Of a DNA stretch of 64,000 nucleotides, positions 4,796-47,452 are shown piece by piece. The first letter of the stretch is position 1; the number at the start of each line of letters is the position of its first letter. Source of the DNA: Ceratorhiza oryzae-sativae (lineage: Eukaryota > Basidiomycota > Agaricomycetes > Cantharellales > Ceratobasidiaceae); NCBI GenBank assembly GCA_030998015.1, contig JARWMV010000056.1:1-64000 (forward strand). The letters run 5' to 3'. A model generated the notes under the pieces. It worked only from the letters and a program-made list of their open reading frames with translations, was not told where the DNA came from and did no database searches. The translations under genes and the position numbers were made by a program.

Positions 4796-5135
4796 ATATG
4801 GTAGGTGCTCTTGAAGCTGGGATTTTCACTCTCAAACACTGTGGCTGCTCTGCTACCTAGCATTGGACAATGACTACAATTAATCAACAAGCCTTTGACA
4901 GGCATGATATAGAGCGTCTTTTTTGCAAGCAGGTAGATTGCTGTCTGCAACACATGTGGTGATGGACAAGAGTCCTAGGGTTGGGTGATAGGTACTGTCT
5001 GCCTTGTAGACACCTGTTACTGGATAGTCTCTTTCCACTTTTGATTATTATGCAGTCCAAGCCTTTCTCCATTTCACAGTAGGCTAGTACAGGGGTACAT
5101 CTCAATCCTGAGTGATAAGGAAGAACTTGACCTAA

Positions 5136-5654
5136 TGTCAGAGCTACAACCTGAAGGGTAATGTCAAACACCTAAGTGGCAATGACAAGCCTATGGGCAA
5201 CAATGCCAGAGGCTGTACTGACAACATCTAAGGTAGGACATGCAGTGAGGGTGCAATAAGACACAAGGATGTAGAAGTAGGTGCACTTGTCCTTAAGAGG
5301 ACTGGGCAGGGACTATGGACTGTAAGTCAAACAGGTAGTAGAGGGGATACAACAGGAGGTCGAGTTCTGAGGCTTAAGGCTCTCAGACTCTCCCTTATAT
5401 ATTTATACAATGAGCTATATCAAATACACATATGGTGCAAGGCAACTATCATATGATGTAAGAATGGTGCCACTTAACAGAATATTCCAGAAGGTACAAA
5501 CAGAACATAAACAACAACAAGGTCATGTGATCATGTAAGTAATTCTATGCATATATCCAATTAAACAGGACTTGTCCAAAAAATATGAGAAAGAGAGATG
5601 TATAAAATATAGGAAAATCATAATAAAATCTGCGTCATGGTCTAGGCCATGACA
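5136..5654 (-). repeat. 5' LTR of GypA (LTR-A, minus orientation)
   Basis: On the minus strand the repeat begins TGTCATGGCC and ends GCTCTGACA, giving TGTCA/TGACA terminal inverted repeats. A homologous copy in plus orientation is at 6309-6837. Shared blocks include GGACAAGTCCTGTTTA, CATGTGACCTTGTTGTTG and GAGCCTTAAGCCTCAGAACTC. The 340 bp between it and gag (4796-5135) is untranslated leader. Confidence 0.8.
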
Positions 5655-7852: not shown

Positions 7853-10800
7853 CTAACCCCCTAGATGTATATAGGGCACCCATCGTGAAAATTTATCCAC
7901 TCCAATCTCATCACGTAGGTGTTTTGTTGCTACGTGTAGCGCTTTCGACGCCTGTCGGGCATCAGAACCCTCGTTTTGCAGCAGATGCTCATAAAACCTC
8001 CTAGCAACTAAAGGTGCATCACCATCGCTGATCGACCACATGGTCGCTATCACATCGGAATAACCCGCCATTAATAGGCCGGCCGCTAGGTGCACCACTT
8101 CGTCTGGAAGTGGTGAATGGCCAGCCGCAGTCTGACATGCGGATAGAAAAGCCAGCTGCGCATTCTTCCTCGGATACCTCGCGATCACGCCGAGTTCGAG
8201 ATCCTTGTCGTGCAGATGTAGTGCACTCTTTAGGGGGTCTAATTGGTTCTGCGACGCATGGCATGCAAAGTGTACCGAATCATGTTGTCCCATAGCTTGC
8301 AGAACTGCGTCTGCCGTAGCAGTTTCCTCCTCTAGCCGAGTGAATCGCCTGCTGAAAAACTGCTTTTGCATGCCATCAAGTTCGGCTTTTGTACCAGGCA
8401 AGGCACCCAAATTGCGGACAGATGATTGGTGACCGACAGCCAGTAGACTAGAGAACGATTGGGGCTGTTTGCGAGGTCTACCTATGGTGCTAATGTTTGG
8501 TGTGTATGACGATATGACAAGGTTATGCAAGATTGTTTCAGGGCAGTCGTATATTCCAGCCGCATGGATGGGTAAAAAAGAGAGAGGGCCAGTGATGCAC
8601 CATGTTATATGGGGGAGATCATCAACCGGACGGATCTCCTGTGCAACAATGTTAGGTGTAAATTTATGCGATTAAGGTGGTGTACATACGTGAATACCAA
8701 GATGATCAAGCACTGGTTGAACGATGCTGGTCCAGAGTGTGCCGAGTAGGCACCTGAAGGATACGGCGTGATGACTGTTATCCTTCTTGATCCCTCGGCC
8801 GACTCCATCCATAGCCAGGCACAGCGAGAGCTGCTTGCGAAGCTCTTCAGTCTTCTTTCGGAATAGATTAGGCAAGGGCACGTGGGTGATGGCGCGTGTA
8901 ATCGAGTTGATGATAATCGCATCGCATCGAGACTCGTGGACATTAACAGCTACGCACATACCATTGTCTACATATTTGATTAGCTTGGCTGCACTAGGTG
9001 ATCGAAGGAAATCATCGAAATGTGGGAGCGACCTGATCGTTTCAAGGAGCTTGTCTCGTCTACTAGCCAGCTGGCTCTGGCGTATATTGCCGCTTGAATA
9101 TGGCCCACTCTGACAAGAGGATGTCTCTTCTTTAGATGAGTTTATCCACTGATCCAGTTGAGACGAGATGTAATTCAGCTCCTTTGCCAGTTCCGGATGG
9201 GAGATGTGAAGATTCTCAACTGGGGTACGGAGCTGAAGCATTTGTCCCCACATCATGCAGCGACCCTGCTCGAGCCACTCCACAGCGACGTCGTAGTGTT
9301 TAACTAGGAGTGCAGCGACTACTGCTCTAGGTAACATCTCTGTTATATATGATTTCAAGCATTCGAAGCGACGCTGGACTGAATTTCCCAACCAAACTAC
9401 TTCAGGGAGCAGAAACATGCACCGAGAAAATGCTTCCAGTGCTTCATAACCATCTGTTTGAGACAGATGTGCCCACAATCGGGCTGCTTGGAGCCTATGC
9501 CACGGATGGCCCACTGAAGACTGGGCCGCTGACCTAAGATATCTCATTGACTGCACGATATGCTCGGGTGTTGACGAGACGAAATATAATTTCAGATAAA
9601 GTTGGCCCATGTGGCATTGAATTGAGTTAAGTATAAAGTTGTCCTCATTGAGGAGGGTCACGGCTTGGTTCATGCACTCGATTGCTGTGTGGAGATGCTC
9701 GAGCTCGCCCAGACGATCAAACAGTGTCTCGTAGGCGTTTCCGAGGTTGTTCAAGCGGCTTGGTTTATCTGGATGGCCCTCAGGAGTGAGTGCGACAGCT
9801 TGTGTCTTGCACTCGATTGCTGTGTGGAGATGCTCGAGCTTGCCCAGACGATGAAACAGTGTCTGGTAGGCGTTTCCGAGGTTGTTCAAGCAGCTTGGTC
9901 TATGTGGATGGCCCTCAGGAGTGAGTGCGACAGCTTGTGTCTTGCACTCGATTGCTGTGTGGAGATGCTCGAGCTCGCCCAGACGATGAAACAGTGTCTC
10001 GTAGGCGCTTCCGAGGTTGTTCAAATAGCCTGGTTTATCTGGATGGCCCTCAGGAGTGAGTGCGACAGCTTGTGTCTCGCACTTGATTGTTGTGTGGAGA
10101 TGCTCGAGCTTGCCCAGACGATCAAACAGTGTCTCGTAGGCGCTTCCGAGGTTGTTCAAATAGCCTGGTTTATCTGGATGGCCCTCAGGAGTGAGTGCGA
10201 CAGCTTGTGTCTTGCACTCGATTGCTGTGTGGAGATGCTCGAGCTCGCCCAGACGATGAAACAGTGTCTGGTAGGCGTTTCCGAGGTTGTTCAAGCGGCT
10301 TGGTTTATCTGGATGGCCCTCAGGAGTGAGTGCGACAGCTTGTGTCTTGCACTCGATTGCTGTGTGGAGATGCTCGAGCTCGCCCAGATGATGAAACAGT
10401 GTCTGGTAGGCGTTTCCGAGGTTGTTCAAGCAGCTTGGTTTATCTGGATGGCCCTCAGGAGTGAGTGCGACAGCTTGTGTCTTGCACTCGATTGCTGTGT
10501 GGAGATGCTCGAGCTCGCCCAGACGATGAAACAGTGTCTGGTAGGCGTTTCCGAGGTTGTTCAAGCAGCTTGGTCTATGTGGATGGCCCTCAGGAGTGAG
10601 TGCGACAGCTTGTGTCTTGCACTCGATTGCTGTGTGGAGATGCTCAAGCTCGCCCAGACGATGAAACAGTGTCTCGTAGGCGCTTCCGAGGTTGTTCAAG
10701 CGGCTTGGTTTATCTGGATGGCCCTCAGGAGTGAGTGCGACAGCTTGTGTCTTGCACTTGATTGCTGTGTGGAGATGCTCGAGCTCGCCCAGACGATCAA

Positions 10801-12346
10801 ACAGTGTCTCGTAGGCGTTTCCGAGGTTGTTCAAGCAGCTTGGTTTATCTGGATGGCCCTCAGGAGTGAGTGCGACAGCTTGTGTCTTGCACTCGATTGC
10901 TGTGTGGAGATGCTCGAGCTCGCCCAGACGATCAAACAGTGTCTGGTAGGCGTTTCCGAGGTTGTTCAAGCAGCTTGGTCTATGTGGATGGCCCTCAGGA
11001 GTGAGTGCGACAGCTTGTGTCTTGCACTCGATTGCTGTGTGGAGATGCTCGAGCTCGCCCAGACGATCAAACAGTGTCTCGTAGGCGTTTCCGAGGTTGT
11101 TCAAGCGGCTTGGTTTATCTGGATGGCCCTCAGGAGTGAGTGCGACAGCTTGTGTCTTGCACTCGATTGCTGTGTGGAGATGCTCGAGCTCACCCAGACG
11201 ATCAAACAGTGTCTGGTAGGCGTTCCCAAGGTTGTTCAAGCAGCTTGGTCTATGTGGATGGCCCTCAGGAGTGAGTGCGACAGCTTGTGTCTTGCACTCG
11301 ATTGCTGTGTGGAGATGCTCGAGCTCGCCCAGACGATCAAACAGTGTCTCGTAGGCGTTTCCGAGGTTGTTCAAATAGCCTGGTTTATCTGGATGGCCCT
11401 CAGGAGTGAGTGCGACAGCTTGTGTCTTGCACTCGATTGCTGTGTGGAGATGCTCGAGCTCGCCCAGACGATGAAACAGTGTCTCGTAGGCGCTTCCGAG
11501 GTTGTTCAAATAGCCTGGTTTATCTGGATGGCCCTCAGGAGTGAGTGCGACAGCTTGTGTCTTGCACTCGATTGCTGTGTGGAGATGCTCGAGCTCGCCC
11601 AGACGATCAAACAGTGTCTGGTAGGCGTTTCCGAGGTTGTTCAAATAGCCTGGTTTATCTGGATGGCCCTCAGGAGTGAGTGCAACAGCTTGTGTCTTGC
11701 ACTCGATTGCTGTGTGGAGATGCTCGAGCTCGCCCAGACGATCAAACAGTGTCTCGTAGGCGCTTCCGAGGTTGTTCAAATAGCCTGGTTTATCTGGATG
11801 GCCCTCAGGAGCGAGTGCCACTGCCCGCATGTGACAGTAAATCGCATCAAAGATGTCCTCGGTCCTACCAATGCACTTGTACAAGAGCAGGTGTGCACAA
11901 CCCAAGTTGCCTAGACAGGCACCCATTTTCGCATGGTTCTCCGATTTCGTTTGAATCCACTGCACGTAGTTGCTCATCGCTTCATACATATCGCTCGGGT
12001 TCCGTCGTCGTTGCGCCAGCTGCAGATAAAATGTACCAAGGACCAAGTAATATTCCGTTGCGTCTCCTGCCTCGCTTTCGTGATCACCAATCGTGCTTGC
12101 GTTTGAGTAAATTGCCGGGTTCAGGTCATGCATCTGTCCTAACCTTCGAAAGGCTGCTTCGCTATAGTCGGCCATATGCTCTGGGGGTCCAAGGCCTTGG
12201 TGCGTATCACCCCAATTCGCCCTGTTTTGATGTTGATTTTCAGTTGGGAGTCGGGTTGGCCGTTTTGCATTCTGTGGATCTTTCTTTAGCCGCGTGCTTA
12301 TGTCCCCGGGCCGATCTTCTCGTGTCAACTCGAATGTGTCGCACAT
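7853..12346 (-). CDS. TPR-CHAT protease-like protein, two exons, about 1480 residues
   Basis: Exon 1 is 12346-8690 and exon 2 is 8638-7853 on the minus strand. The 51-bp intron (8639-8689) has a GTATGT donor, a TAAC branch site and a CAG acceptor, in phase 0. The N-terminal about 170 residues are followed by sixteen 45-residue TPR units (9671-11830), a helical linker, and a C-terminal CHAT domain (a clan CD cysteine peptidase related to caspases and separase). The catalytic histidine lies in HFACHA and the catalytic cysteine in LSACQTA, both in exon 2, so the protease site looks intact. TPR-CHAT proteins bind regulatory partners through the repeats. In bacteria such proteins are activated by RNA-guided complexes, while in basidiomycetes they are numerous and mostly uncharacterised. 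The start is the first ATG of the long frame; an upstream exon is possible. Confidence 0.9.
9671..11830 (-). repeat. Sixteen tandem 135-bp repeats encoding TPR units
   Basis: The 135-bp period is exact. Each unit encodes 45 residues with the core LNNLGNAYQTLFDRLGELEH, and the only variation is at a few positions (DKPGY, DKPSC, DKPSR or HRPSC; D/H before RL; SAYE, NAYQ or NAYE). Such uniformity at DNA level, including silent sites, points to recent expansion or gene conversion within the gene. The degenerate first unit (LAPEGHP) and the last (IECMNQAV) mark the array edges. Confidence 0.92.
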
Positions 12347-13744
12347 CTCCCCATTTGATGCACCCGGGCCCTCCTCCAGGCACCGAGCAGGCTGATCCTA
12401 TGTATTAGTATGGTGTGCTTAGCGTGCGATGGTGGGCTTATTCAATCAAACTCGCCTCAACGTGGTTGGCACATATCTCTGCCTTTGTTAAATGGTATGC
12501 CGACGGCTGGTCCAACTGTCGGTTTCCGGTGTCAGTCAAATGTCTTGAACTGTTTCCAACCACTCGAAACTTACAGATCGGTTCTGGGATTCGTACACAT
12601 TCAAATGTCAACATGTATTCTAAACCGCTAGCGTTGGCACGGAAAATCGCTTACCTCCATCCCATGTGGCTGAACAGGTTACGATCCAGTTTCTTACTCA
12701 AGAATATATGGGTTTATCGTTGGATGGATTGGTCTTTTGGGATTCTGACTCTGTGCAAGCTGGGTGAGCCTGGAATTATATATTAACGAATGAAGCCGAT
12801 CTATGCGGTGTCCGGCGTCTACTTATCACCATTTCCCGAAGGAGCGCTCGTCGCCCGGCTCCTATCCTTGGTCTGATGCCAATCCCTGATGCGCGGGATT
12901 CTGCAGGAGAAATTTTTACACGCCACGCTCTTGACTGACACCAAGGAGCTAAACCCACCATCCAAAAATCTGGTTCAGGCGGCACCTCGCTTATTGAAGC
13001 GCGCCAAACACGAGAGCGCTTCAATAAGACCTAGCGCGGGTGATCAAAGCGGTTAAGCTCGAGTATAGTAGCGCATACAAGTTACGGGTACAGGTTGCTG
13101 GAGATTCATGCGACACATTCATTCAGTTTTAGAGTACGGAGAACAAGGACGAGAATACGCGGGTGTTATAACTCGTGTAAAGCTAAGACATGAATATCGG
13201 ACAACAGGCGGAGGGAGAAGAACGATATCGATATGACATCGATGATAGACCGTGTATATTCAACAGCCCCGGCTAGCGTCAGCAGATGCACGGGGTTCAA
13301 GCGGGGAAACCATCCCGAATGATTTGCGTGTATCACAAAAGTGTCCGAAGAGTCTGATAGTCACTATAGGCCTATATAATGTGGATATACCACACTGTGC
13401 TAAGAAAACATAAGCATCCTGACAATCGGCTTGGATTTTGCACGCTACAACGGATTTTCAAGTGAGCAACCATGTGCATATATGACCATTTTACCAAACT
13501 TTACCATGCATCACGTCCATTTAAAGTCAAGAAATTCCCGGTTTGTCAATGGCCCGGTACCAGGGCGAACTACTCAGAAATTGCTGGTAGAATTTGGTTT
13601 CGTTCCTCGCAGCAATCCCAGTCGAGGGAGGGGAACGATGGTGGGGGTGGGGGGTGGGCCGGAAATAATGGCGCGGAGGAAAAAGACTTTCGGGCGGGGG
13701 AGACTGAGTCTGGTGAACCTCCACTGAACAAACCTGGAGCGTAC
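12347..13744. other. Region without a recognised gene, upstream of the TPR-CHAT gene
   Basis: It should contain the promoter of the minus-strand CHAT gene at its left edge. Short frames at 12410-12786 and 12776-13024 have no recognisable domain and no splice-supported extension. I see no transposon ends in this stretch. Confidence 0.4.
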
Positions 13745-32594: not shown

Positions 32595-33133
32595 TGTTGT
32601 GACCCTCTGGATGCTTCCTTGTGAAGCACTTAAGTAGTGGCTGCATTGATGGTTTGGTGTTATGCAGTATGTATTGAGTGTTCTAGTTACAGTGTTTGCT
32701 ATGGTCTATGGTGGTTGACAAGATAAAGCAAGCTGAGGTGTCCAGTCTTGCTTTATCCTTCTTGTATACGCCTGTGGCTGCAGTGGCTGCAGATGTATTA
32801 TTTAAGCACAATCCACAGTAGGTGCAGGTTATATATAGTACTATGGGTTAGGTAATTGTTTATCTTAAGTTTGTGTGGCTCTGAATCTTATAGAGCTGTG
32901 TGAGGTCCAAGGGGTAAGCACTGGTTAAGCACTGAGGTCATGTGACAACTTGCTCCTCACTCCAAGTAACAATGGAGAGAAATGCTGGAGCAAGTTCAGG
33001 GTAACCACTGTAAGGACTGGTTAAGCACTGAGGTCTCATGACCTTGTTTATGGCTTGTTCTGCTTAGGAAAAAATGCCATAAATCTGTAAAATATTTGGT
33101 TACTCTGTTATGTCTGTTTGACAGGTCATAACA
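32595..33133 (-). repeat. LTR-W copy of element W' (3' LTR, minus), 539 bp
   Basis: It matches LTR-W but has only one unit of the about 115-bp internal repeat, which accounts for its shorter length. A polypurine tract (GGGGGGGATAA on the minus strand, 33134-33146) precedes it. 33147-33516 is the untranslated 3' region of W', including a tRNA-like segment. Confidence 0.83.
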
Positions 33134-33516
33134 TTATCCCCCCCTTTGGACATGTCTTGGGGGACCTCAAGACATGATTTAGATCCTTTATGCAAAAGGA
33201 ATCTCATGCACCAAGGAGGTTAAGGGCACTGGACTCAAACCAACGACCTTTCAGCTGATTCAGTATTGTTTGATGAGGTGAGGCTGAGTCAGGCTAGACC
33301 CCTTAACCTCTACATTACATGAAATTGTTTTTCTTTCTTTGTTGTGGAGGTTATCCAGGGGTGAGGAGTTGTCTGCCTCTTCTCAGAATGCCCCAACTGT
33401 TTTGGATGGGTGTAGCAGAAGTTGTTCCTTTGTTTCTCTTTTGGTTCTTAAGGTGTTGTACAATACAATAAATTACTCTAAGGGAATACAAAGAATGGTT
33501 TTCCTCCTGAGTACAC

Positions 33517-34289
33517 TCATTCTACATTTTTTGATACCCATAAGTCCCCCTCTTCCCCCTCTATGTCCAACCAACACTTCATGATTGCTGACCAGCTATT
33601 TCCCAGAATAACTGTCAGCCATACCTTCATTGATTTCACATGTCTGTACCTGCCCATGAAGTCCACCTCGTACTGGCTCAGGGCCTTGAGCCAGTACTTC
33701 CCATTTGACTGGACCATGTCATCCAGGATCCAAATGTCAGTGTCTTCCAACAAGTTCCCCACATTCCACACATTGCACATCCAGCTGTGACAGCCCTTGG
33801 ATTGTGCATATGCTGTTTTCCCCATCCCAGTCTCTCCTTCTATTACCAGGATGCAATGGCGCACCCCTCTTCCCCTCTTCTTGACTTCCTTGGCAAACCA
33901 TCTGTCCACTTGGTCAATGTGCTCCTGGTCTCCCAGGACCTCTAACTCCACAGGGATTGCAGGCATGCAACCCCAGTCTTCCTTGTACATGTACTTGGCA
34001 TACACTCATACTGAGTTCCATGTCATCACCATCTGGAGGGGGTGGAGGTGCTTGAACACCTGGTAGTACTCCTGCTTCATCACAGAGGCGACAATATCCA
34101 TCCTGTCCTCCAAGTCTCCCTCCATCCTTGACTGTTTTCTGCCCTTTCCCTTCACCAAGATCTCCTCCAACCTTTCCAAGGTCAGGTCCCCTGCCATCAA
34201 CTCCTCTATCTCCTCACTGTTAGCTCTGACATCCTTCCAGAGATAGTTGAAGGCATCCCTTGCTGGGTTGCCTCCTGGCCCATCCTTGA
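33517..34289 (-). pseudogene. CRESS-DNA Rep-like protein of W' (partial)
   Basis: On the minus strand from 34289 it starts after the HUH motifs, at the HPNIQ-distal part, and runs through the YLWKD tyrosine motif, the linker and the complete superfamily 3 helicase domain: Walker A GETGMGKT, Walker B WILDDM and motif C TVILGNS. One in-frame TGA lies at 34006-34008, exactly where the W copy has TAA. The 5' end is cut by the LTR of W at 34290. The helicase motifs here are better preserved than in W. Rep of geminiviruses and genomoviruses nicks and unwinds circular DNA for rolling-circle replication; whether this copy was ever functional in the element is unknown. Confidence 0.82.
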
Positions 34290-34958
34290 TGTTATGACCT
34301 GTCAAACGGACATAACAAAACAACCAAATATTTTTACAGATTTATGGCATTTTTCCTAAGCGGAACAAGCCATAAACAAGGTCACGTGACCTTGGCGCTT
34401 AGCTGGTGCTTACGGTGGTTACCCTGAACTCGCTCCAGCATTTCTCTCCATTGTTACTTGGAGCAAGGAGTGAGTTGTCATGTGATCTCAGCACTTACAG
34501 AAGGATCACATGACCTCAGCGCCTATGGTGGTTACCCTGAACTCACTCCAGCATTTCTCTCCCTTGTTACTTGGAGCGAGGAGCAAGTTGTCATGTGATC
34601 TCGGTGCTTACAGCAGGATCACGTGACCTCAGCGCCTATCCCTCGGACCTTGCATGGCTCTATAAGATTCGGAGCTGCACAAACTTAAGACAAACAATTA
34701 CCTAACCCATAGTACTGTACATAACCTACACCTACTGCAGAGTGTGCTTAGATAATACGTCCGCAGCCACCGCGGCCACAGGTATATATAAGAAGGATAA
34801 AGCAAGACTGGATGCCTCAGCTTGCTTTATCTTGTCAACCACCATAGACCATAGCAAACACTGTAACTAGAACACTCAATACATATTGCATAGCACCAAA
34901 CCATCAATGCAGCCACTACTTAAGTGCTTCACAAGGAAGCCTCCAGAGGGTCACAACA
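34290..34958 (+). repeat. 5' LTR of element W, 669 bp
   Basis: TGTTATGACC to GGGTCACAACA. It has two units of the internal about 115-bp repeat with TCACGTGA-like palindromes, and a TATATAAG box at about 34785. It begins directly at the point where the W' Rep frame is cut. Confidence 0.87.
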
Positions 34959-35078
34959 TTATAAAGCAAGCTCTTAACTTAACTAGTGGTGAACATAAGT
35001 ATACTACACAGATACTAAGGGCTGAGTACATGAGAAACCAGCTAACTCCTGTGATACATAAGAGAACACAAAGAAACT

Positions 35079-36913
35079 ATGTCACAGAGACCACAAACTC
35101 AATCTCAAAGCAGAGTGGCAAATAGTAGGCCACAATCACCCAAACCTGTTGCTTCCCCAGAGGCTGAAGGTAACCCAGATGAGACCCTCCAAGGAATGCC
35201 AGGGGGGTTGCCACAAAACCCACAACCAGTGGCTCAACCTAACCCCACTCGGGCCCCCATCCTGGGAGGGGAAATAGGGGGAATACCGCTCTGCAGCCCT
35301 CAACCACCAATTCACCTGATAAATCCAGACCCAGAAGATATCTCAAATCCAGAGAGGGATGAGGTAGAAGATATGACCTGAACCATATATGAACAAGGCA
35401 CGGCCTTGGCGGAAGAGGCAAGGACACAACCCCAGCCAGGTCCTGGAACCATAGCCACTGCCAACCCTATTCACACCATTGCCACTGCCATCAGGGTGGG
35501 GCTCAAGGAACTTAGAGACAATAACCATAGGGAACTAGAAAAGGCAATCACAGGTATAAATCAGTGTCAAATATCACTAACCCGACAAGATGGAAATGTC
35601 AACTGGATGGTAAGGTCAATGGAAACATCCAACAAAAATGTCCTCTATGTGGCAAAGAACCAGGACGACCTAAAAGCAGAAATGGGGAACCTGATAAAAG
35701 AATTAAAGGACATCTCCATGGAAATAAACTGGGTACTGGGAATGCAAGAGCGAAAGCTTGAAAGCTTAGACAAGAAAACTGAAAACACAGGGGAGATCCT
35801 AATTGCACTAGAACAACAGGTAACCAATCTAGGAAATGAGCTCTGGAAAACAACTGAAGAAGGAAGGCCAAGGGAAAGGACAGAAGAGACCAGGGGAAGA
35901 ACTAGGGTGGTCATAGGAACCCCCTCACAATCCCCCTCAGCCTCCCCAGTATGAACACCCTTTCTGGGAAGAACCTTCCAGGCTGAGTCCACAATAAGAC
36001 CCAAACAGAACCTCCATCCCAAGCAAACCAACCTACCCTTGCTGCAAACCACACTCCTAAGGAGGTGCAACTAGGGAGACCCAGCAAATTTAATGGGAAA
36101 AAGGGGAAGGAAGCAGAGAACTTCATAGTCAGCATGGAACTTTTCTTTGCTGACTATGACGAATCAGCCTTTGATGACTGAAAAAAGATATCTGCTGTGT
36201 TAATGAACATGGAGGATGGGGAAGCAGCAAACTGGGCACAACCTTACCACTGGAAACTAATAGCAGGCGAACACACAGGTATTCTTGCATCCTGGAAGGA
36301 TTTCAGGAAGGGATTCCTGGATGCTTTTAATGACCCAGTCATAAAGGAAAAGACCATCCAGAAACTAAGGAAATTAACACAGACCAAGAGTGCATTGGAT
36401 TATGCTACCCAATTCTGGATCCTGATCCAAGAGGTAGACTGGAACCAGGAAGCCCTCAAGGACCAATTCAGGGAAGGGTTAAAACCCGAAGTACGACAAG
36501 AGATCTTAAGGATTGAAGTACTGGCAAATGAGGCTGAAGGTCCATCATATACCTTAGATCAATTAATTGACTTTGCCTGCAAAATGGACAACATGCAGTT
36601 TGCAAACCAGAAAATGAATGCAAGGACCAGCAACTCATCAAATTCAACCTGGGCACCAGCGAAATACAAACAAGGGGGGAACAAGCCTTTAGGGACCAGC
36701 GGCAAACAGGGGAATACCCAAACCAACAACATGGTAAGGATACCAAACAGTGAAAAGGACAGGCGAAGGAAAGAAGGACTCTGTATCAAATGTGGTAAAT
36801 CAGGGCATGTCCTGAAGGAGTGCCAAGGCCAGTGGACCTACGACAAAGCTAAGATACAAGGGAAGGCCAGCAGACAAGTTGAGGAAGAGAGCAGCTCTGA
36901 GTTGGAAAACTAA
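35079..36913 (+). pseudogene. Element W gag
   Basis: It starts at an ATG 120 bp after the LTR. The N-terminal part is proline-rich. The same frame continues past a TGA at 35379-35381 into a coiled coil (35406-35954). After frameshifts and further stops there is a Ty3 capsid core (36197-36600, ANWAQPYHWKLIAG, LKDQFREGLKPEVRQEIL) and a CCHC knuckle (CIKCGKSGHVLKEC). At least three inactivating changes are visible. Confidence 0.85.
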
Positions 36914-36964
36914 TTGGTCCTACCACTTCCATGTTGGAGGACCCCAATATAACCCCTACTGCAG

Positions 36965-37423
36965 ATGTATGTTACCTCAAGAAGTCTAGTAATCAATCAA
37001 TACACTGTGGTAGAGGGAATAATGGAACCAGCAAAGACGCTGATTGACTCGGGATCTTCAACCAACTTCATCAATAAGGCCTATTCAAGGGAAAAGGGGA
37101 TTCCAACCACTCCCCTCAAACACAAGAAATCAATTGTGGCCATTGATGGAAATGAAATCAAGGATGCCATAGATGAAAGGGCAGAACTAAACATCGAAGT
37201 GGAAGGGAAGACACTAAAATGCTCCCTTTATGTAATGACCCTAGGTGACACAGACATAGTCCTAGGGAAAGAATGGCTTGAAGAAGCAGAACCTATCATA
37301 GATTGGAAAGACCTTACCATCTCATACCCAGATGAAATCAAGGCAAGGGCAGCAAGTGAAAGCCTACAAATCCCAGAAGAATTTAGGGATTTTGAAGACC
37401 TATTTGGGGAAGAAGGTTTCTGA
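36965..37423 (+). pseudogene. Element W aspartic protease
   Basis: A retropepsin-like domain with an intact DSGSS active site (TLIDSGSSTNFINK) and the VLGKEWLEEAEPIIDW block. It ends in a stop just before ELPPHRG, the usual start of the RT linker. 37424-37613 continues RT N-terminal sequence in shifted frames. Confidence 0.83.
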
Positions 37424-37613
37424 GAACTTCCACCCCACCGAGGTAACCTAGACTTCAAAATGGACCTGATCGAGGGAGCAGAGCTGCCAAAGCCTGCAAA
37501 GAGGTACAGTATGTGCCAGCAGAAACAAAGGGCTCAGGGAGTACCTAGAGGAGGAACTAAGAAACAGGAAAATAAGGCCCAGCCAGTCAGTTGTAGCTGC
37601 ACCCTGTTTCTAT

Positions 37614-40334
37614 GTGAACAAAGCAGATGGAGGGCTTAGGTTGGTAGTCGACTACCGTAAGATGAATGACATCACCAAGCCAGACAGGTTTCCACTTCCA
37701 ATCCAAATAGAATTGATTGAGAGACTGAAGGATGCAACCATCTATTCAAAAATGGATGTTCAATGGGGGTTCAACAACATCAGGGTAAAAGAGGGAGACA
37801 AATGGAAAACAGCTTTCAGGACAGGAGAAGGCCAGTTTGAATGCTTGGTCATGCCATTCGGAGTAAAAGATGGACCAAGAACCTTTACAAGGTTCATGAT
37901 GGAAAAGTTCCGTGATATAATAGACGATTATGTGGTAATCTACATGGACGATGTACTAGTGTTTTCCAGAAACAGGGAAGAACACATACAACATGTCAGG
38001 GAAGTGTTAAGAAGAATGAGGGAAAACCACCTCTTCCTCAAACCACACAAGTGTCAGTTCTTTGTGAAGGAGGTAAGCTTCATTGGAATTGTCATATCCC
38101 CAGAAGGGATATCGATGGAAAAGGAAAAGGTAAAGGCAGTTCTAGAATGGCCAGAACCTAACACAGTAAAAGAAGTCCAAGCCTTCCTAGGCTTCGTGGG
38201 GTTCTATAGAAGGTGGATAGAGAAGTTTAGTACCTTAGCCAAACCCCTCACAGATCTCACCCAAAAAGATGTCAAATTCCTGTGGGAAAGAAAACAACAG
38301 GAAGCATTTGAAGCTATCAAAGAAGCAGTAGCAAGAGAACCAGTCCTGATCCACCCAAACCCAAACAGGCCATACATACTGGAAACAGACACCTCAGGAG
38401 TGGCCATGGGGGCAGTACTAAGCCAAAAGGGTGATGACAACCGATTGCATCCAATTGCCTTCCTATCAAAGAGCTTCACCCCACCAGAGAAAAATTATGA
38501 CACCTACGACAAGGAGTTGCTTGCAATTGTTAGGTCCTTAGAGCACTGGAGGTTATACTTAGAAGGGACAGAGGAACCTATTGTGATATACACTGACCAT
38601 AGGAACCTCCAGTACTGGCAAAATGCCCAGATGTGGAATAGAAGGCATGCCAGATGGTACCTCACTCTGGCACCCTTCAATTTTCAGATTGTGTATAGAC
38701 CAGGGAAACTCTCACAGAAGCCAGATGCCCTTTCCAGAAGGAGCGACCATGGGGATACCCCTATGGAACCACAGATCATGATTCCAGAAGAAAGGTTCAT
38801 AGGTTTCATGGCAGAAGTACAGGGGAATTTCTGGGAAGAGCTTAAAGAAGCTCAGGAAGAAGACAAATCTATCAGATCCTTAAGGCTGAGCATGGCAAAT
38901 AAAGAACAACTACCGCCCTCAGTACAGAAGGAATTTAGATGGTACGAAATGAAGGAGGGCCTATTAAGGTATGACGATAGGCTCTACATCCCAGATGACA
39001 AGGACTTGAGGCTGAGTCTCCTTGAGGAGTGCCATGACGCCCCAGTGGCAGGTCATCAGGGACAAGCCCGAACACTAGAATTACTATCAAGGGATTACTA
39101 TTGGCCAGGAATGAAGGCCCAAGTAAACCGATATGTGGAATCTTGTGAAACATGTCAAAGAAGCAAAGGACACAAACAAGGCACTCCCCTGAAGTCCTTA
39201 CCAATCCCATGGAAACCATGGGCAGATGTCGCATATGATTTCATCGTCAAATTACCCATCTCAAAGGGGTACGACAGTATCTTGACAGTTGTAGGTTGCT
39301 TCTCCTGGCAGGCCCATTGTGTACCATGTCTGGAGAGCACCAATGCAGAAGAACTGGCAGAAATATTCATAAGGGAGGTATGGAGACATCACGGGACCCC
39401 AGAAACCACTGTCTCAGACCGAGGGCCAACCTTTAACAGCCAATTCCTAAGAGCCCTATACAAAGGAATTGGGACAAAGCCCAGATTCTCCACTGCCTTC
39501 CATCCAGAAACAGATGGTCTGTCGGAAAGGACAAATCAATGGGTAGAAGGGTTCTTAAGAACCTTCTGCAATTATAGACAAGATGATTGGGTAAAATGGT
39601 TACCCATTGCCAATTCTGCCATAACAACCATGTAAATGCTACAACAGGACAAACCCCATTTGAAACAGTATATGGAAAAAACCCAAGATGGGTTGTCCAA
39701 GAGGGAGAAGAACCATCTGAGGCACCCGCTGCAGACAACATGCTAATCAAATGGAAAAGGTATGGGATGAGGCAAGAGCCTCAATGGAATTACACCAACA
39801 AATGGAAAAGAAAGGGAGGGAATTCAAGGTAGGAGACAAGGTTTGGCTGCTCCTAACAAACCTCTTGTCCAAGAGACCCTCCAAGAAACTGGACAACCGA
39901 AAAGGGGGGCCTTTTGAAATCACAGAAAAGATCTCATCCCATGCATATGCCTGGACCTACCTAAAACCATACGTGTACACAATGTATTCCATGTAAATCT
40001 CCTCTTGCCATTCACAGAAGATAAAGACTTCCAAAGAAGGCAGGCCAAACCACCACCAATCATAACGGAAAAAGGAGAGGAGGAATAGAGGTGGACCACA
40101 TTGCAAATTATGAATGGCAGAATGGGAGCTGTTTTACCAAATCAGATGGAAGGGGGCTACGACCCAATAGAAGACACAATGGAACGTGCCAGCAAGTTTG
40201 CTGACATGAAAGAGGTTCTAAATGACTTGCAAAGGCACTTACCAGATGCACCAATGCCAGTCAAGACAAGTCAGCACTCAGGTGACTCGAAAGGCAGGCC
40301 AAAGAGAACCAAACGAGGATCTGGAAAGCTTTAA
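37614..40334 (+). pseudogene. Element W RT, RNase H, integrase, chromodomain
   Basis: The 673-residue main frame (37614-39635) holds RT with an intact YMDD site (VIYMDDVLVFSR), RNase H (ILETDTSGVAMGAVL, YDKELLAIV, YTDHRNLQYW), the integrase zinc finger (GHQGQARTLEL...CETCQ) and the DDE core (YDFIVKLP, SDRGPTF, HPETDGLSER). A frameshift near 39615 moves the C-terminal part (NATTGQTPFETVYG, VGDKVWLL) into the next frame, and a further one splits the chromodomain (about 40085-40230, YDPIEDT). It is the best-preserved pol in the window but not intact. Confidence 0.9.
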
Positions 40335-41265
40335 AAAGAGCCATCCAGGATACCCAAGAAAGGCCAGAGCCTGCTCTACCACCTCACTTGCACCACAAAC
40401 ACCTGCAAAACCCCAAAACATGCCTTTCACACTCACCCAGTGCACATCCCAACCGTTACACCACTTGCTGAAAATCAGGTGGCCCCACTTTGGCAGCCAC
40501 CCACCACCAGGCAGCCAGCACCCTACCCTGGCAGGGAAAATTGTCCTAAACCAGGGATGTACTGCTCCAGTGTGGAAGACGCCCAGAGGTACGCGAAGAC
40601 TGTTGCCAGGGGCTAACCTAGTGTACATCCCAAAGAAGTTAAGGGATGAAAGGAACTGGATTGACAATGACAAGTACCTGGATCCCAGGTTAGGGGTCCT
40701 GACATGGCATGGAAGCCGGAAGCCACAACGAGAAACGCCTTGTTAAGAACACCGATGTATGTCATTGACAATATGTGGGACCAACAGTCGACATGGTGAC
40801 CAAGGCAGCAAGACAACAGAGGAGGGCCACAGGCCAAATGGCAGAGAGGGGGGACTGGGAGGTGGAGCGCCAGGCAAAGGCATTGCTGGAAGAATGGAAG
40901 TTGACACCCATGCATATGTGGGACTGCTCGAAGCAACTACCACTGATGAGATGTTTACTGCTATCAGGACAAAGCAGGCAAACATGAGCAACTTCCGAAA
41001 TTGGGTGAAGGTGCACCCAAACAAAAACACCAATTACAACACTGATATGACAAGCCTTACATCAAGCCTAGAATCACTGGTGTGGCTGAGGAAGAAGCCA
41101 AGCCAGAAATAAAGGAACCCACCCTGGACCCAGCTGGAGGAAGCCAAACAGGACTGGGACCGGTGGGAAAAAGCTTGTCAAAGCTCTGGAGGAGGTGCCA
41201 CTGTTGGAACCAACCCCCATATGACCACTTTGCCTCCCACAAATTGTCTCCCGAATGTATAAGAG
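40335..41265 (+). other. Element W, region between chromodomain and antisense ORF
   Basis: Plus-strand frames at 40222-40746 and 40759-41112 look partly protein-like (AYVGLLEATTTDEMFTAIRT, LVYIPKKLRDERNWIDNDKY) but break repeatedly and match no family I know. It may be a decayed extra gene of the element. Confidence 0.4.
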
Positions 41266-41915
41266 TTTTTTTTTTTTACACACCAAACTTAATACATTTT
41301 TTTACTCTCTATTTTTACGTTTGCCCTTGAGGGGCCGGGTATAGGGCTTCTTGCCCCTTTTATCCTTCTTATTGGTCTGAACTGACTGGGTAGTGGGCTG
41401 CAGCCAAGGAGCCTCCCCCCCTGGGAAGTGGCCATGTAGTTCTGGAAACACCCAGAACCAGACGCTGCAAAGGGCGAAGCCTCATCAAACAAGGGAGCAG
41501 AGCCCTCCTCGAAGAATTCGGCAAGAGGGCCTGGTGAGACTGCTCCTCAAAGGACTTGTAGTCCTGATCAACGAGCGCCCAGACACACTCAAGGGTGGCC
41601 TCATGGGCCGACCATCAAGGAGGATGTGCTCTTCTACAGAACAAGTTAGCTACGTGAGAACAACAAAGAACAACACATACCTGGCACCCCACAGAAGAAC
41701 CAGTCCCCAACACCTCCATAGAAGTCTTCAAGGGAGGCGTTGCACACAGCATCACAGTAGGCACAGTACTCCCCCTCAGGGAGAGACCAGCAGGTGCAGT
41801 CAAGGGGATTGTAGTTAAGGGAAAAAACGCATAGTAAAGGGATGAGGAAGGAAAACAACAAAACCACAAACATTAAAAAATCACAGTGCAACACAATAAC
41901 TTGCACAAACATCAA
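41266..41915 (-). pseudogene. Antisense protein-like segment with terminal A-run inside element W
   Basis: On the minus strand, with two or three frame changes, it reads as a cysteine-rich part (CTCWSLPEGEYCAYCDAVC, 41646-41915), an acidic aromatic part (EATLECVWALVDQDYKSF), and a strongly basic tail (KKDKRGKKPYTRPLKGKRK) with a TAA about 25 bases before a run of twelve A (41266-41277). This layout resembles a reverse-transcribed mRNA captured in antisense. I do not recognise the protein. 41916-42602, between this and Rep, shows no convincing frame and no nonanucleotide replication origin. Confidence 0.4.
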
Positions 41916-42602
41916 AACAAGGTCTGGTCAGGTGACACCACAGACACATGACCATCTGCCAGAAAACAAACAACAAAGCATGGGAATCACATGACCTAGC
42001 CTAGTCACGTGAATATATGCTATCCCCTAACTACTGGAGGGGTTGGAGAGGGGGCACCAACCGAAGTGGAGGAGCAGAGGCCCCAAGTGTAGTGAGGAAA
42101 AAGGCTGATGCGGGGGAATGCAGGAAGGGCACCCCTCGGAGATGCGTCATAACCAGCACAAGCCTACATCAGGAAACCACATGACCACAACAACCAGAAA
42201 GGGTATATCTAGGGGATGCCTTTGGGGGTAAAAGGGGCTATCATTTCATGCCCTCCCCACAAGATGCATCTACCTCAAAAAGCACCAACAATGCTAAGCA
42301 AAGATGGCTCAAATGTGGGAACACCCCAGCCAAACAAATCAAGCACAGGGCAGAGGTCGCCATCGCCATTGCTGGTGCCCTGAGAATCAAGCTGAGCCCC
42401 CTCACCTGCTTCTACACAGCTGACACTGATGGATCACGGGTCCAAAGAGCTGACTGAAACTGCATGGGCCCCCTGATTCTGTGTCCAGACCAGGGCAGTG
42501 CTGCTGACCTGGTTGAAGCTACGTGATCAGCCCTCAAGTGGGCTTGCTGCCTGATATGAGGCATTCTGCCGCCACCAGCCCAATCACTGGGCAACCTTAG
42601 CC

Positions 42603-43538
42603 ATGGTCAAACGGCACAACCTGGAGGAGCCAAACTACAACCCAACCTGGCCCCTGCACGTCCATGCCCTCTCCATCAGTCAGGAACAGAAGGGCAGGTG
42701 GAACACCCAGAACGCAGGGTTCTGGGACTTCAAGGGGCAACACCCCAACATACAGCCCAAAGACCTCAAGGACCAGCCAGGAGGCAACCCAGCAAGGGAT
42801 GCCTTCAACTATCTCTGGAAGGATGTTGGAGCTAATGGCAAGGAGATAGAGGATTTGATGGCAGGAGACCTGACCTTGGAAAGGTTGGAGGAGATCTTGG
42901 TGAAGGGAAAGGGTGGAAAACAGTCAAGGATGGAGGCAGACTTGGAGGACAGGACGGATATTGTCACCTCAGCAACAAAACAGGAGTACTACCAGGTGTT
43001 CAAGCACCTCCACCCCCTCCAGATGGTGACGATGTGGAACTTGGTATAAGCATATGCCAAGTACACATACAAGGAAGACCAGGGTTGCATGCCTGCAATC
43101 CCTGTGGAGTTAGAGCTCCCGGAAGACCAGGAGCACATTGACCGAGCAGACAGATGGTTTGCTGAGGAGGTCAAGAAGAGGGGAAGAGGGGTGCGCCATC
43201 GCATCCTGGTGATAGAAGGAGAAACTGGAACAGGGAAAACAGCATATGCACAATCCAAGGGCTGCCACAGCCAGATGTGCAATGTGTGGAATGTGGGCAA
43301 CTTGTCAGAAGATGCTGACATTTGGATCCTGGACAACATGGTCCAGTCAAACAGGAAGTACTTGCTCAAGGCCCTAGGCCAGTACAAGGTGGACTTCACA
43401 GGCAGGTAAGTGCATGTGAAATTGATGAAGGTACAGCCAACAGTTATTCTGGGAAATAGCCAGTTGGCAATCATGAAGTGTTGGTTGGACATAGAGGGGG
43501 AAGAAGGGGACTTATGGGTATCAAGAAATGTAGAATGA
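42603..43538 (+). pseudogene. CRESS-DNA (geminivirus/genomovirus-like) Rep of element W
   Basis: The frame starts at an ATG and runs about 312 codons with two TAA stops (43047-43049 and 43407-43409). The HUH endonuclease motif II reads HVHALSI (residues 19-21 are the H-x-H). The segment FWDFKGQHPNIQP resembles the geminivirus Rep sequence (GRS) of geminiviruses and genomoviruses. The tyrosine motif is YLWK (residues 70-73). The superfamily 3 helicase follows with Walker A GETGTGKT, Walker B WILDNM (second acidic residue lost) and motif C TVILGNS. No clear motif I was found upstream of the ATG, so the N-terminus is lost or diverged. It lies on the element's coding strand just before the 3' LTR. 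Confidence 0.83.
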
Positions 43539-43887
43539 GTGTACGCAGGAGGAAAACCATTCTTTGTATTCCCTTAGAATAATTTACTGTATTGTACAAC
43601 TTCTGCTATGCCCATCCAAACAGTTGGGGCATTCTGAGAAGAAGCAGACGAATCCTCACCCCTACATAACCTCCACAACAAAGAAAAGAAAAAACAATCT
43701 CATGTAATGAAGAGGTTAAGGGGTCTAGCCTGACTCAGCCTGACCTCATCGAACAATACTGAATCAGCCAAAAGGTCATTGGTTCAAGTCCAGCACCCTT
43801 AACCTCCTTGGTGCATGAGATTCCTTTTGCATAAGGATCTAAACCATGTCTCAAGGTCCCCCAAGACATGTCCGAAGGGGGGGATAA
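43539..43887 (+). other. Element W 3' untranslated region with tRNA-like segment and polypurine tract
   Basis: At about 43712-43803 there is a stretch whose ends pair (GTTAAGG/CCTTAAC) and which contains a B-box-like TTGGTTCAAGTCCA. The W' copy preserves it (about 33213-33310). GAAGGGGGGGATAA at 43874-43887 is the polypurine tract. Confidence 0.5.
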
Positions 43888-44556
43888 TGTTATGACCTGT
43901 CAAACAGACATAACAGAATAACCAAATATTTTTACAGATTTATGGCATTTTTCCTAAGCAGAACAAGCCATAAACAAGGTCATGTGACCTTGGCACTTAA
44001 CTGGCACTTATGGTGGTTACCCTGAACTTGCTCCAGCATTTCTCTCCATTGTCACTTGGAGTGAGGAGTGAGTTGTCATGTGATCTTGGCACTTACAGCA
44101 GCATCACATGACCTCTGCGCTTACAGTGGTTACCCTGAACTTGCTCTGGCATTTCTCTCCATTGTTACTTGGAGTGAGGAGTGAGTTGTCATGTGATCTT
44201 GGCGCTTACAGCAGGATCATGTGACCTCAGCACCTACCCCTTGGACCTCACACAGCTCTATAAGATTCGGACCTGCACAAACTTAAGACAAACAATTACC
44301 TAACCCATAGTACTGTACATAACCTGCACCTACTGCAGATTGTGCTTAGATAATACATCTGCAGCCACTGCAGCCACAGGTATATATAAGAAGGATAAAG
44401 CAAGACTGGACACCTCAGCTTGCTTTGTCTTGTCAACCACCATAGACCATAGCAAACACTGTAACTAGAACACTCAATACATACCACATAGCACCAAACC
44501 ATCAACACAGCCACTACTTAAGTGCTTCGCAAGGAAGCATCCAGAGGGTCACGACA
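43888..44556 (+). repeat. 3' LTR of element W, 669 bp
   Basis: TGTTATGACC to GGGTCACGACA, with two internal repeat units. Compared with the 5' LTR it has A or T where the other has G or C in many CpG-type sites (ACGG to ACAG, CACGTG to CATGTG), a C-to-T/G-to-A bias. Confidence 0.87.
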
Positions 44557-44735: not shown

Positions 44736-47452
44736 TGAAATGTGTTTTGCACATTTCATTACTCATTGTCATATTGTATGCACAAACAACACTTTCTATG
44801 GCAGGAAGCTGTGTCTTACACCAGTATGATTGCCAATAACATGCCTCACAAGATCCATGGTGAATGGTGTATTCCCCTAGTTGAAATGTTCAACAAACCA
44901 ATCGACATGTCCTATTTTCAAATTTTTGGCACTACTTGCCAGGTTCTTATACAATTGAAACCCCATTCAAAAATTGAGGCCAAAACACGTTGTGCCATCT
45001 TTACCAGCATTGATAGAAACTCTGGAGGCACTTGGTGCTACCTTGCTTGGCCCAATCAAGTGATTTGCACATCTCAAAACATTTATTTTCCCTGCCACCT
45101 CCCTGATCAAACATATTTTGATGCTCCAACCCCTAAAGCCATTTCTGGCAAACCAGATAGTCTCTCCAAAGACAAATGGGTTCATGTATTCACACCAAGT
45201 GAGGGGGAGATGGGAATGTTGGATGTCACATGTGGCTGCACATTGGGTCATGTGATTCATATCAGTGTATTTAGGCATTGTAGTAGAAAATTTTACAAGA
45301 GAGAGAGATTTCACCTAACCACCATGTAGCCTGCCCGCTACCTCAAGTTTAACAGGGAACTGGTCCCAACACTCTGAAACACAGGCATACATCCACTCAG
45401 CACAAAGACCTGTCCACTCAGGCTCAGGGGGAGTCTTCTATGCTGTTGCAACCTGCTGCTATGCCTTTAACACCTAGTCCATTGGTAAACACTAGCCCTA
45501 GTCATCCTGAACATTCCCATTGACCTGCTCCTGGTCCTTCTGCACCATCCAAGTCATCTGATCAACTAGTCCCTGGTGACAATTGTTGCATTACTTGTAC
45601 TCAGGCTTGCACTGGTGCTAAACCAATCAAACACATGTGCCTCAATGAAAAGTCCAAACTTGAACGCATACTATGGCTCCAAGCACTCAATGACTTGCAC
45701 AATCAAACTAGCTTGTTTATACACAACCCTGATGAAGTCTATCTAGTCGACTTGTTGTCCTTTGGCAATTCTCCCTATTGCTTGCAGCTACCTAGTCACA
45801 TACAGGCCTGCTTTCTTGCTCTCAACACTAGCTGCAATGACGAACTACCTTGCTACAACACCTGGGCTGCAAAACACTTATCTTCACTCTCTCAGCCCAA
45901 TCTAGTTGACTCTGACTTGCCTAAATGGTCTGATGCCTTGAAGTCCAATTGCTGCAAGGACTGGCTTGCCACTGTTGACACTGAATTCAATCAATTGAAG
46001 AAGAACAACATCTATAGAGAAATCGATTGTCTCAACGTACCTTGTGGTGCCCAAATACTCACATCTGGCCCAGTACTGAAAATTAAGTGTGATGCTGACA
46101 GCGAAGAAGTTCAACTCAAAGCTTGTCTAGTCATACACAGAAACCGACAGATTGCTGGTCTTACTTATAATGAAACTGTCTCAAACACTCCCGATCTTGT
46201 CTATATCTGCATTGTCTTCACTCTTGTTGCTCATGCTGACTTGGACTGCCACATGGTCAACGTTACCAGCACATACACTCATGCGCCGATGGATATTCCA
46301 CAATATGTCAAATTCCCAGAGGGATATGGGAAAGGTGGCCCAACTATTGTGCTCAGCAAAAACCTGTGGGGGTAATGGTGTGTAATTAGGCATAAGGAGG
46401 GGTAATGAAAACAGGGGTGTAGTAATGGTGTCATTATGCCAAATTACACTGGTGTAATGGATAATGACAGATAATTATGTGTCATTTCATGGAATTACAC
46501 CATTACTACACCCCCCTGTTTCATTACACCTCAAGTTTTTCCTGAGTGTTCGTCACTCAAGCACTCTACAGCTTGCATCAAGCTGGCTATCTCTGGGAAC
46601 TATTTCGCAACAGCAAAATCATTGCTATTGGCTATCGTCCATGTGCAAAGGATGTCTCTATCTTCACTCACACCAAGAACGGTGTTTTCTCCATCATTAT
46701 CTGCTATGTCGACAACTTTGTTATCTGCTGTACAGCTGGTCATATTGAATCTATCAAGCACAAGATCCTTAACCTATACGACTGTAAAGATCTAGGCAAA
46801 ACTTGTTTATTCCTAGGCATCACTGTCACTCGCAATTGTGCCTGATGCACTCTGTCACTTACTATGGAATCGTACATCAAATCCACTGTCAAACTCACCA
46901 ATCTTGACAAGGCTGCTCCTGCTGAAACACCTATGTCAAATACTACGCCTATTCTTGAACCTTCGACTGACCAGATTCATTATCTGTATATTACTCAACT
47001 CAGCTGCTTGTTCTGGGTTACTTGCTGCATTCGTCCCAACATCTTGTTCCCTGTCGGTGTTTTAGCTTGCCATGCTGGTGCCTTCGGAAATGTGCACATC
47101 AACGTCATGAAGCGTGTTCATTGCTACCTCGCTACTACTGCTAAACTTGGCATCACTTATGACGGCTATAAACCTTTCTACGAAGTCGCTTACTTGGATT
47201 CTGACTATGCCCAACAGCACCTTCAAAAGTTGATTTCTGTCTGCATTATTATTCTATCTGGTGCTGCTGTTGCTTGGCTATTGAAGTGTCAGTCCTCTGT
47301 CGCTCTTTCAACCATGGAGGCCGAAACGGTTGCTTGCTATCATACTGCGAAGGAGCTACTAGCTATACGACAATTTCTAGATGATATTGGTATTAAGTAC
47401 TCGTCTCCCATCACTTCACCCATTCTATGCGATAACCAAGCTGCTATTGACT
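44736..47452 (+). pseudogene. copia-1 integrase C-terminus, reverse transcriptase and RNase H start
   Basis: 44742-45329 carries the integrase C-terminal block (FLWQEAVSYTSMIANN, FQIFGTTCQVLIQL). 45860-46370 carries the start of the RVT_2 RT domain (KDWLATVDTEFNQLKKNN), with NVTSTYTHAPMD in place of the usual DVKTAFLHG-type motif. After a small insertion, 46531-46845 has ALYSLHQAGYLW and the active site YVDN in place of YVDD. 46864-47452 is RNase H up to LCDNQAAID, where the Harbinger element interrupts it. Both altered catalytic aspartates mean the RT is dead. Confidence 0.87.
46401..46530. mobile_element. MITE-like inverted repeat inside copia-1 RT
   Basis: The arms 46401-46432 and 46497-46530 are near-perfect reverse complements (GGGGTGTAGTAATGGTG/CACCATTACTACACCCC). 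The core is about 64 bp. It interrupts RT between LSKNL and ALYSLHQ. The outer edges are fuzzy, since G/T-rich sequence extends to about 46370. Confidence 0.65.

Follow-up and report, generated by a model that had tools for sequence, protein, structure and literature searches.

The Rep gene located in front of the 3′ LTR of the Ty3/gypsy element W was found to be a usual part of this element and to move inside it. The copies detected in the genome very probably constitute a family of self-priming Ty3/gypsy chromoviruses with a 3′ Rep gene that has been under purifying selection. The W family would thereby be a chromovirus of the Tf1/sushi type with one Rep of the genomovirus/geminivirus type near its 3′ end. 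Positions given without a locus name refer to the window, which is the whole analyzed stretch of 64,000 nucleotides from Ceratorhiza oryzae-sativae.

The LTRs of W have a length of 669 bases each. The 5′ LTR (34290–34958, + strand) was identified by repeat search and has TG...CA ends, and the 3′ LTR (43888–44556, +) is 91% identical to it. The putative self-priming primer-binding site (34961–34972, +) is a perfect 12-nt complement to the LTR stretch starting at 34819; one LTR hairpin also contains sequence complementary to the primer site. It is followed on the + strand by gag (Retrotrans_gag, Ty3_capsid and zinc knuckle; 36182–36913), the aspartic protease (36953–37423) and the reverse transcriptase, RNase H and integrase in Ty3/gypsy order (37470–39635). 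W therefore has the LTR pair and the gag-PR-RT-RH-IN order of a Ty3/gypsy chromovirus. The segment from 39636 to 41000 (+) is broken in W and was assigned by correspondence with the copy L037 to the 3′ integrase with SH3 (Tf2-1-like) and chromodomain, followed by a part of a third ORF. In L037, the Tf2-1-like SH3 and the chromodomain (PF00385, 26.0 bits with a cut-off of 25.1) are located after the integrase. The third ORF, between integrase and Rep, encodes 338 aa in L037 (6314–7330, −), corresponds to about 40222–41330 of the window and had no Pfam match at E ≤ 0.1. The region between the third ORF and Rep (41001–42380, +) precedes Rep in most copies examined.

Between Rep and the 3′ LTR, a tRNA-like segment with acceptor-like arms and the B-box-like sequence GGTTCAAGTCC was identified (43715–43803, +). 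A scan of 39 loci and the window gave 36 matches, of which 34 have the 3′ arm and 27 show the B-box form GGTTCRRGTCC; one of the matches lies in the B copy of L037, which carries the second Rep lineage described below. The segment was not called by ARAGORN or Rfam, and its fold was not unusual compared to shuffled sequences (z −1.48). The LTR of W contains 113-base tandem units with inverted repeats of the type GTCACGTGAT...ATCACGTGAC (34477–34514, 34590–34627 and 44075–44112), and the number of these units varies from LTR to LTR. Hairpin units with CACGTG / GGCGCTTA recur in the LTR, both in the W-like copies and in the B copy of L037, and may act as enhancers or promoter elements.

By alignment with an open copy, the Rep of W was delimited to about 42387–43574 (+). 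It contains HUH endonuclease and SF3-type helicase motifs together with 6 in-frame stops and is itself a pseudogene. All seven Rep motifs are located in a single + frame in the CRESS order: motif I LLTW (42501–42512), motif II HVHALS (HUH; 42657–42674), the GRS-like FWDFKGQHPNIQ (42720–42755), motif III YLWK (42810–42821), Walker A GETGTGKT (43218–43241), Walker B IWILDNM (43320–43340) and motif C VILGN (43443–43457). The original prediction had described the region 42603–43538 with motifs in this order on the coding strand of W. The motifs that it listed were all found there in one + frame, and motif I lies upstream, outside that region. Walker B contains DN in W compared to DD in nine aligned relatives, among which the nuclease and helicase motif residues show no variation. 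The complete ordered motif set was present in all 8 full-length Rep relatives tested. In a control with two of these relatives and 20,000 shuffles each, the ordered set was obtained in none.

The same gene had been predicted in the same position in the partial element W′, and this was confirmed. On the − strand, the Rep remnant of W′ (33517–34289), which ends at the 5′ LTR of W, has the same trailer between Rep and LTR (33134–33516) and the same LTR (32595–33133) behind it. The stop at 43047 was considered as one shared by W and W′ and then dropped, because W has TAA there, whereas W′ has TGA. Since the codon reads CGA, CAA or TGA in other copies, one inherited stop is unnecessary. An intron at this stop was rejected due to in-frame read-through in other copies. 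Elsewhere in the window, an open frame of 1241 aa (8672–12397, −) consists mostly of 45-aa repeats, TPR-like in appearance, which are underlain by a 135-base tandem array (9518–11977), and open frames resembling Ty1/copia remnants are located at 44739–46375 (+).

CRESS Reps are characterized by motifs I (UUTU), II (HUH) and III (YxxK) (Kazlauskas 2019). The corresponding forms in the Rep family are LLTW, LHVHA and YLWK. Between motifs II and III, a GRS is present with the family form RFWDFEGNHPNI, which is close to the RAFDVDGYHPNI given for a genomovirus (PMC10821283, Table 2). Walker A, Walker B and motif C follow downstream of the HUH motifs, as expected for a CRESS Rep.

The predicted structure matched the WDV and TYLCV Rep as well as genomovirus models in its HUH endonuclease fold. 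The first AlphaFold2 model had a mean pLDDT of 36.7 and the second one of 44.3, the latter being usable in the HUH part only; confidence is also low for the GRS part (pLDDT about 40), and the helicase part, with nearly all pLDDT values under 50, is too poor for a comparison with the SF3 fold. In the Foldseek search against the PDB, ranks 1–3 were CRESS Reps, yet no match reached E ≤ 0.001. The comparison in which genomovirus models were matched resulted in 14 matches at E ≤ 0.001 with TM-scores of 0.19–0.24 by query length, which are low because most of the model is unreliable.

The profile searches stayed below the level of viral Reps. PF00799 (Gemini_AL1) had no match at E ≤ 1 among the Rep family proteins and none at the Rep copies in the genome, and the control genomes were likewise without a match. 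PF08283 (Gemini_AL1_M) was found in 9 of 31 family members at E ≤ 1, with a best score of 19.5 bits (P0015, E 0.001, nearly the whole profile) against a cut-off of 24 bits; its genome search yielded two weak matches only, none of them at a Rep copy. At E ≤ 0.1, the P-loop family nSTAND3 was detected in 21 of 84 members compared to 11 of 84 for PF08283. Searches of the PDB with phmmer/hmmsearch retrieved no Rep, the PHROGs search gave nothing convincing, and no relative was found in two scans of viral_contigs. As the Pfam and PDB sequence searches fall short of viral Reps, the viral link rests on the motifs and a moderately confident fold model. Both are consistent with a Rep of the genomovirus/geminivirus type, and we infer that it originated from a virus and not from a Rep plasmid.

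For the analysis of the copy distribution, the genome (48.8 Mb, 253 contigs) was searched with 32-base patterns allowing up to 3 mismatches, by which 138 sites were found for pol and 143 for Rep. A second Rep lineage, named B, was found at 61 sites by its own pattern, which overlap in part with the 143. Among the 100 pol sites listed (of 138), 80 have a listed Rep site 3.0–4.6 kb downstream on the same strand. The distance is 1.15 kb in one internally deleted copy, 4.6–8 kb in four and 8–15 kb in six cases. The remaining 9 lack a Rep site in the 15 kb downstream, which counts against Rep as a usual part; even together with the six sites where it follows only at 8–15 kb, copies without Rep are a minority and not the norm. 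Independent insertion of Rep was not observed either, since the junction between Rep and trailer was identical in all 19 further stretches fetched. An LTR follows behind Rep and trailer in 18 of them. The exception is L031, where the trailer is shortened and no LTR is present in the following 1.2 kb. Pol was found upstream of Rep and in the same orientation in 14 of the 19 stretches (in two of them only its 3′ part). For L031, L046, L047 and L048, only the regions between pol and Rep were seen, L031 and L048 beginning at a contig end, and in L034 neither pol nor these intervening regions were seen. Several copies are broken up by LTRs of related elements.

Target duplications were looked at in W and L032. 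W shows none (flanks CTTGA and CTCAT), and L032, an LTR-gag-PR-pol-Rep-LTR copy with an internal deletion, has the 5-bp sequence ACCAT on both flanks. The shared junctions, the LTRs and this one target duplication show that Rep moves with the element by means of its integrase; the passage through RNA would follow from the element type. The original prediction, that the gene was acquired once by the W lineage and spread with it, thus holds for the spread, given the shared junctions and the usual presence of Rep. As to the acquisition, Rep would most simply have been taken up a single time, before the lineages seen here split.

Relatives of the Rep in other isolates were identified by two alignment searches of 5.8 billion proteins, in which scoring was confined to the nearly 8,000 candidates with the most words in common. 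The searches returned at least 80 and at least 90 relatives, respectively, the second one at E ≤ 10 adding 10 of the same family. Among the matches listed, all organism-named relatives belong to Ceratobasidium (AG-Ba, 394, 395, 414, 428 and UAMH 11750), the rest being mostly metagenomic. These Ceratobasidium proteins are the closest named ones among those matches, with about 69–78% identity for those of nearly full length, and include intact relatives of 427–429 aa. No viral relative by sequence was found among the matches listed in the protein searches and in viral_contigs. In AG-Ba, one cluster of 429 aa comprises 38 member sequences and others comprise 17 and 13, and these cluster sizes suggest that the Rep gene is probably mobile there too. 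One AG-Ba gene model (P0018, 560 aa) contains most of the Rep and an unrelated C-terminal part and had no Pfam match at E ≤ 0.1. In L037, Rep is overlapped at its start by a second open frame (4666–5286, −). The peptide AAYADGSRVRRADR of this frame also occurs close to the beginning of some gene models of Ceratobasidium (P0001 and P0006); coding in two frames, an intron or an incorrect gene model are possible explanations.

The state of the copies was determined by a protein search of the genome, in which 104 copies out of 243 candidates were scored. No stop inside the match was found in 33 of the 104, and 29 are full length and open (query residue 1–3 to 398), so that intact copies, which had been named as a check, do exist. 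Forty W-like rows, i.e., W, W′ and 38 fetched copies, were aligned. They are the copies that match W best, 40 having been scored out of 177 candidates, and leave out copies of intermediate identity and the W-like copy of L037. The frame examined is interrupted by one or more stops in 38 of the 40, and in 16 a stop precedes motif I, at codon 31. Where stops recur most often, the codon reads CGA in other copies. The CpG frequency in Rep is 9.6/kb in W compared to about 60–70/kb in five younger B copies. W would accordingly be an old copy that lost its activity through transitions, in many cases at sites that were once CpG. Among the W-like copies, the Rep transitions amount to 0.0707 per site, of which only 0.0195 are in a still-visible CpG context.

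The identity is 97–98% in pol and about 92% in Rep and LTR, a gap that at first suggested different ages of these parts. Among W-like copies, however, the transversions per site are 0.0058 in pol, 0.0079 in Rep and 0.0087 in the LTR (0.0043 in gag, and reaching 0.0129 in the stretch preceding Rep), and the transitions are 0.025, 0.071 and 0.075 in pol, Rep and LTR, respectively. Much of the contrast is therefore transition decay. It persists between the lineages, which suggests recombination.

With regard to the function of the Rep, its most likely use, although we hold this only tentatively, would be the nicking and unwinding of extrachromosomal DNA of the element. In such a cycle, cDNA circles would be multiplied or processed by Rep before integration. 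The candidate nicking sites are the CACGTG / GGCGCTTA hairpin units of the LTR, none of which has the canonical nonanucleotide. The hairpin search of W (stems of at least 9 pairs, loops of 4–18) found no canonical viral nonanucleotide, which counts against nicking at an origin. A further step, still doubtful, would be two replication modes, i.e., copying from RNA by reverse transcriptase and rolling-circle copying of extrachromosomal DNA by Rep, possibly from the LTR hairpin units.

The next most likely use would be a regulatory one, to which we give a rather low probability. Here, Rep would lower host silencing or promote DNA synthesis without any replication of element DNA. Geminivirus Reps counter host silencing and push cells into DNA synthesis. 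In line with this, the differences between the W-like copies are mainly transitions and most of the CpG in Rep is lost, a sign of methylation pressure. However, the invariance of the nuclease and helicase residues in the nine relatives goes beyond what a purely regulatory role would need.

Alternatively, Rep would have been inserted by chance and hitch-hiked without function for the element. The stops in 38 of 40 W-like rows (although in 16 rows one of them lies ahead of motif I) as well as the lack of an origin found in W fit to this. The comparison of the 40 W-like copies with 5 B copies (of at least 61, selected as those matching a single B copy best) points in the other direction. Of 86 fixed differences between them, 68 affect the third codon position; the synonymous ones number 70 and the nonsynonymous ones 16, and 10 resemble CpG decay. 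The mean dN/dS between the lineages, 0.11 overall, amounts to 0.18 for the HUH and 0.06 for the helicase part, compared to 0.19 within B and 0.35 within the W-like copies, these pairwise values having branches in common and not being independent. The open genomic copies and the intact Ceratobasidium relatives likewise speak against a functionless gene, which we regard as improbable and which the substitution pattern already disfavors. As proposed as a check in the original prediction, the substitution pattern in the history of the two lineages indicates that Rep is kept as a protein by purifying selection, and the open copies fit to this.

That selection could have acted outside the element, if two lineages had taken their Reps separately from viruses or plasmids. 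The copy L037 could be read in this way, since its pol is 98% identical to that of W and its B-type Rep only 83%. However, the flanks of this B copy diverge in step with the gene (region before Rep 83%, trailer 75% (220/349 bases), LTR 83–86%). This parallel divergence, seen in full in one B copy, fits to a single capture, after which the 3′ module diverged as a whole, and independent captures appear quite unlikely. The difference between pol and Rep shows that the 5′ and 3′ parts of L037 have different histories, which probably arose by recombination. A defensive role, in which Rep shields the host or the element from related circular DNA viruses, is very improbable, since it leaves the seat of the gene in a high-copy retroelement and its spread with it unexplained, even if the clustering of fungal endogenous Reps with a mycoviral Rep, as far as given in PMC3198968, indicates that such viruses meet fungi.

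Compared to known systems, the W family is largely consistent with the Tf1/sushi-type chromoviruses in its gag-PR-RT-RH-IN order, the chromodomain, the Tf2-1-like SH3, the self-complementary primer site and the 5-bp duplication (one copy). Tf1-type elements self-prime from an LTR-complementary site. The W family differs from them in the additional 3′ Rep gene and the additional ORF of 338 aa. Helitrons are likewise eukaryotic mobile elements that combine an HUH nuclease with a helicase. The Rep of W differs from these in the one tyrosine in motif III, the CRESS-order helicase motifs and the presence of LTRs, reverse transcriptase and integrase. Rep and RT/integrase would thereby unite two replication machineries, reverse transcription and rolling-circle initiation by HUH/helicase, which to our knowledge are kept apart in known element classes. 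Since Rep is usual in the family, open in a fair number of the copies scored and shaped by purifying selection, the benefit of an initiator of the DNA-virus type to a retroelement becomes directly testable.

The Reps of Genomoviridae and Geminiviridae share with the W family all seven motifs (I, II, GRS, III, Walker A, Walker B and motif C) and their order. They are encoded in a small circular genome, whereas the Rep of W is housed in an LTR retroelement, and motif I is LLTY in these viruses and LLTW in the W family. In addition, no capsid gene or canonical origin was recognized in W and no Pfam cut-off was passed. Among the literature matches listed, mainly open-access, no title or beginning of an abstract described a Rep inside an LTR retrotransposon, and the part of a review on virus-transposon fusions that was covered (PMC10175614) contains no Rep-bearing LTR element. 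This is in agreement with the original prediction, which knew of no described family with this layout. The Rep-type accessory gene in a Ty3/gypsy element thus appears to be new, of a kind unreported there in the literature searched.

In fungi, five Rep genes or remnants were described for Laccaria bicolor and 42 for Tuber melanosporum, where they were amplified as a transposon, and the fungal endogenous Reps group with a mycoviral Rep (Liu et al., 2011; PMC3198968). The Tuber transposon is similar to W in that a geminivirus-like Rep was multiplied within a fungal mobile element. As far as described in PMC3198968, it has terminal inverted repeats, transposase ORFs and an interrupted Rep ORF, whereas the W family has LTRs, gag, RT/integrase and open Rep copies. 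Judged from its LTRs and RT/integrase, W does not belong to the DNA transposons defined by terminal inverted repeats together with transposase ORFs. The fungal record of CRESS Reps, which in the parts of PMC3198968 covered consists of scattered relics and one DNA transposon, would thus be widened to a high-copy family of LTR elements.
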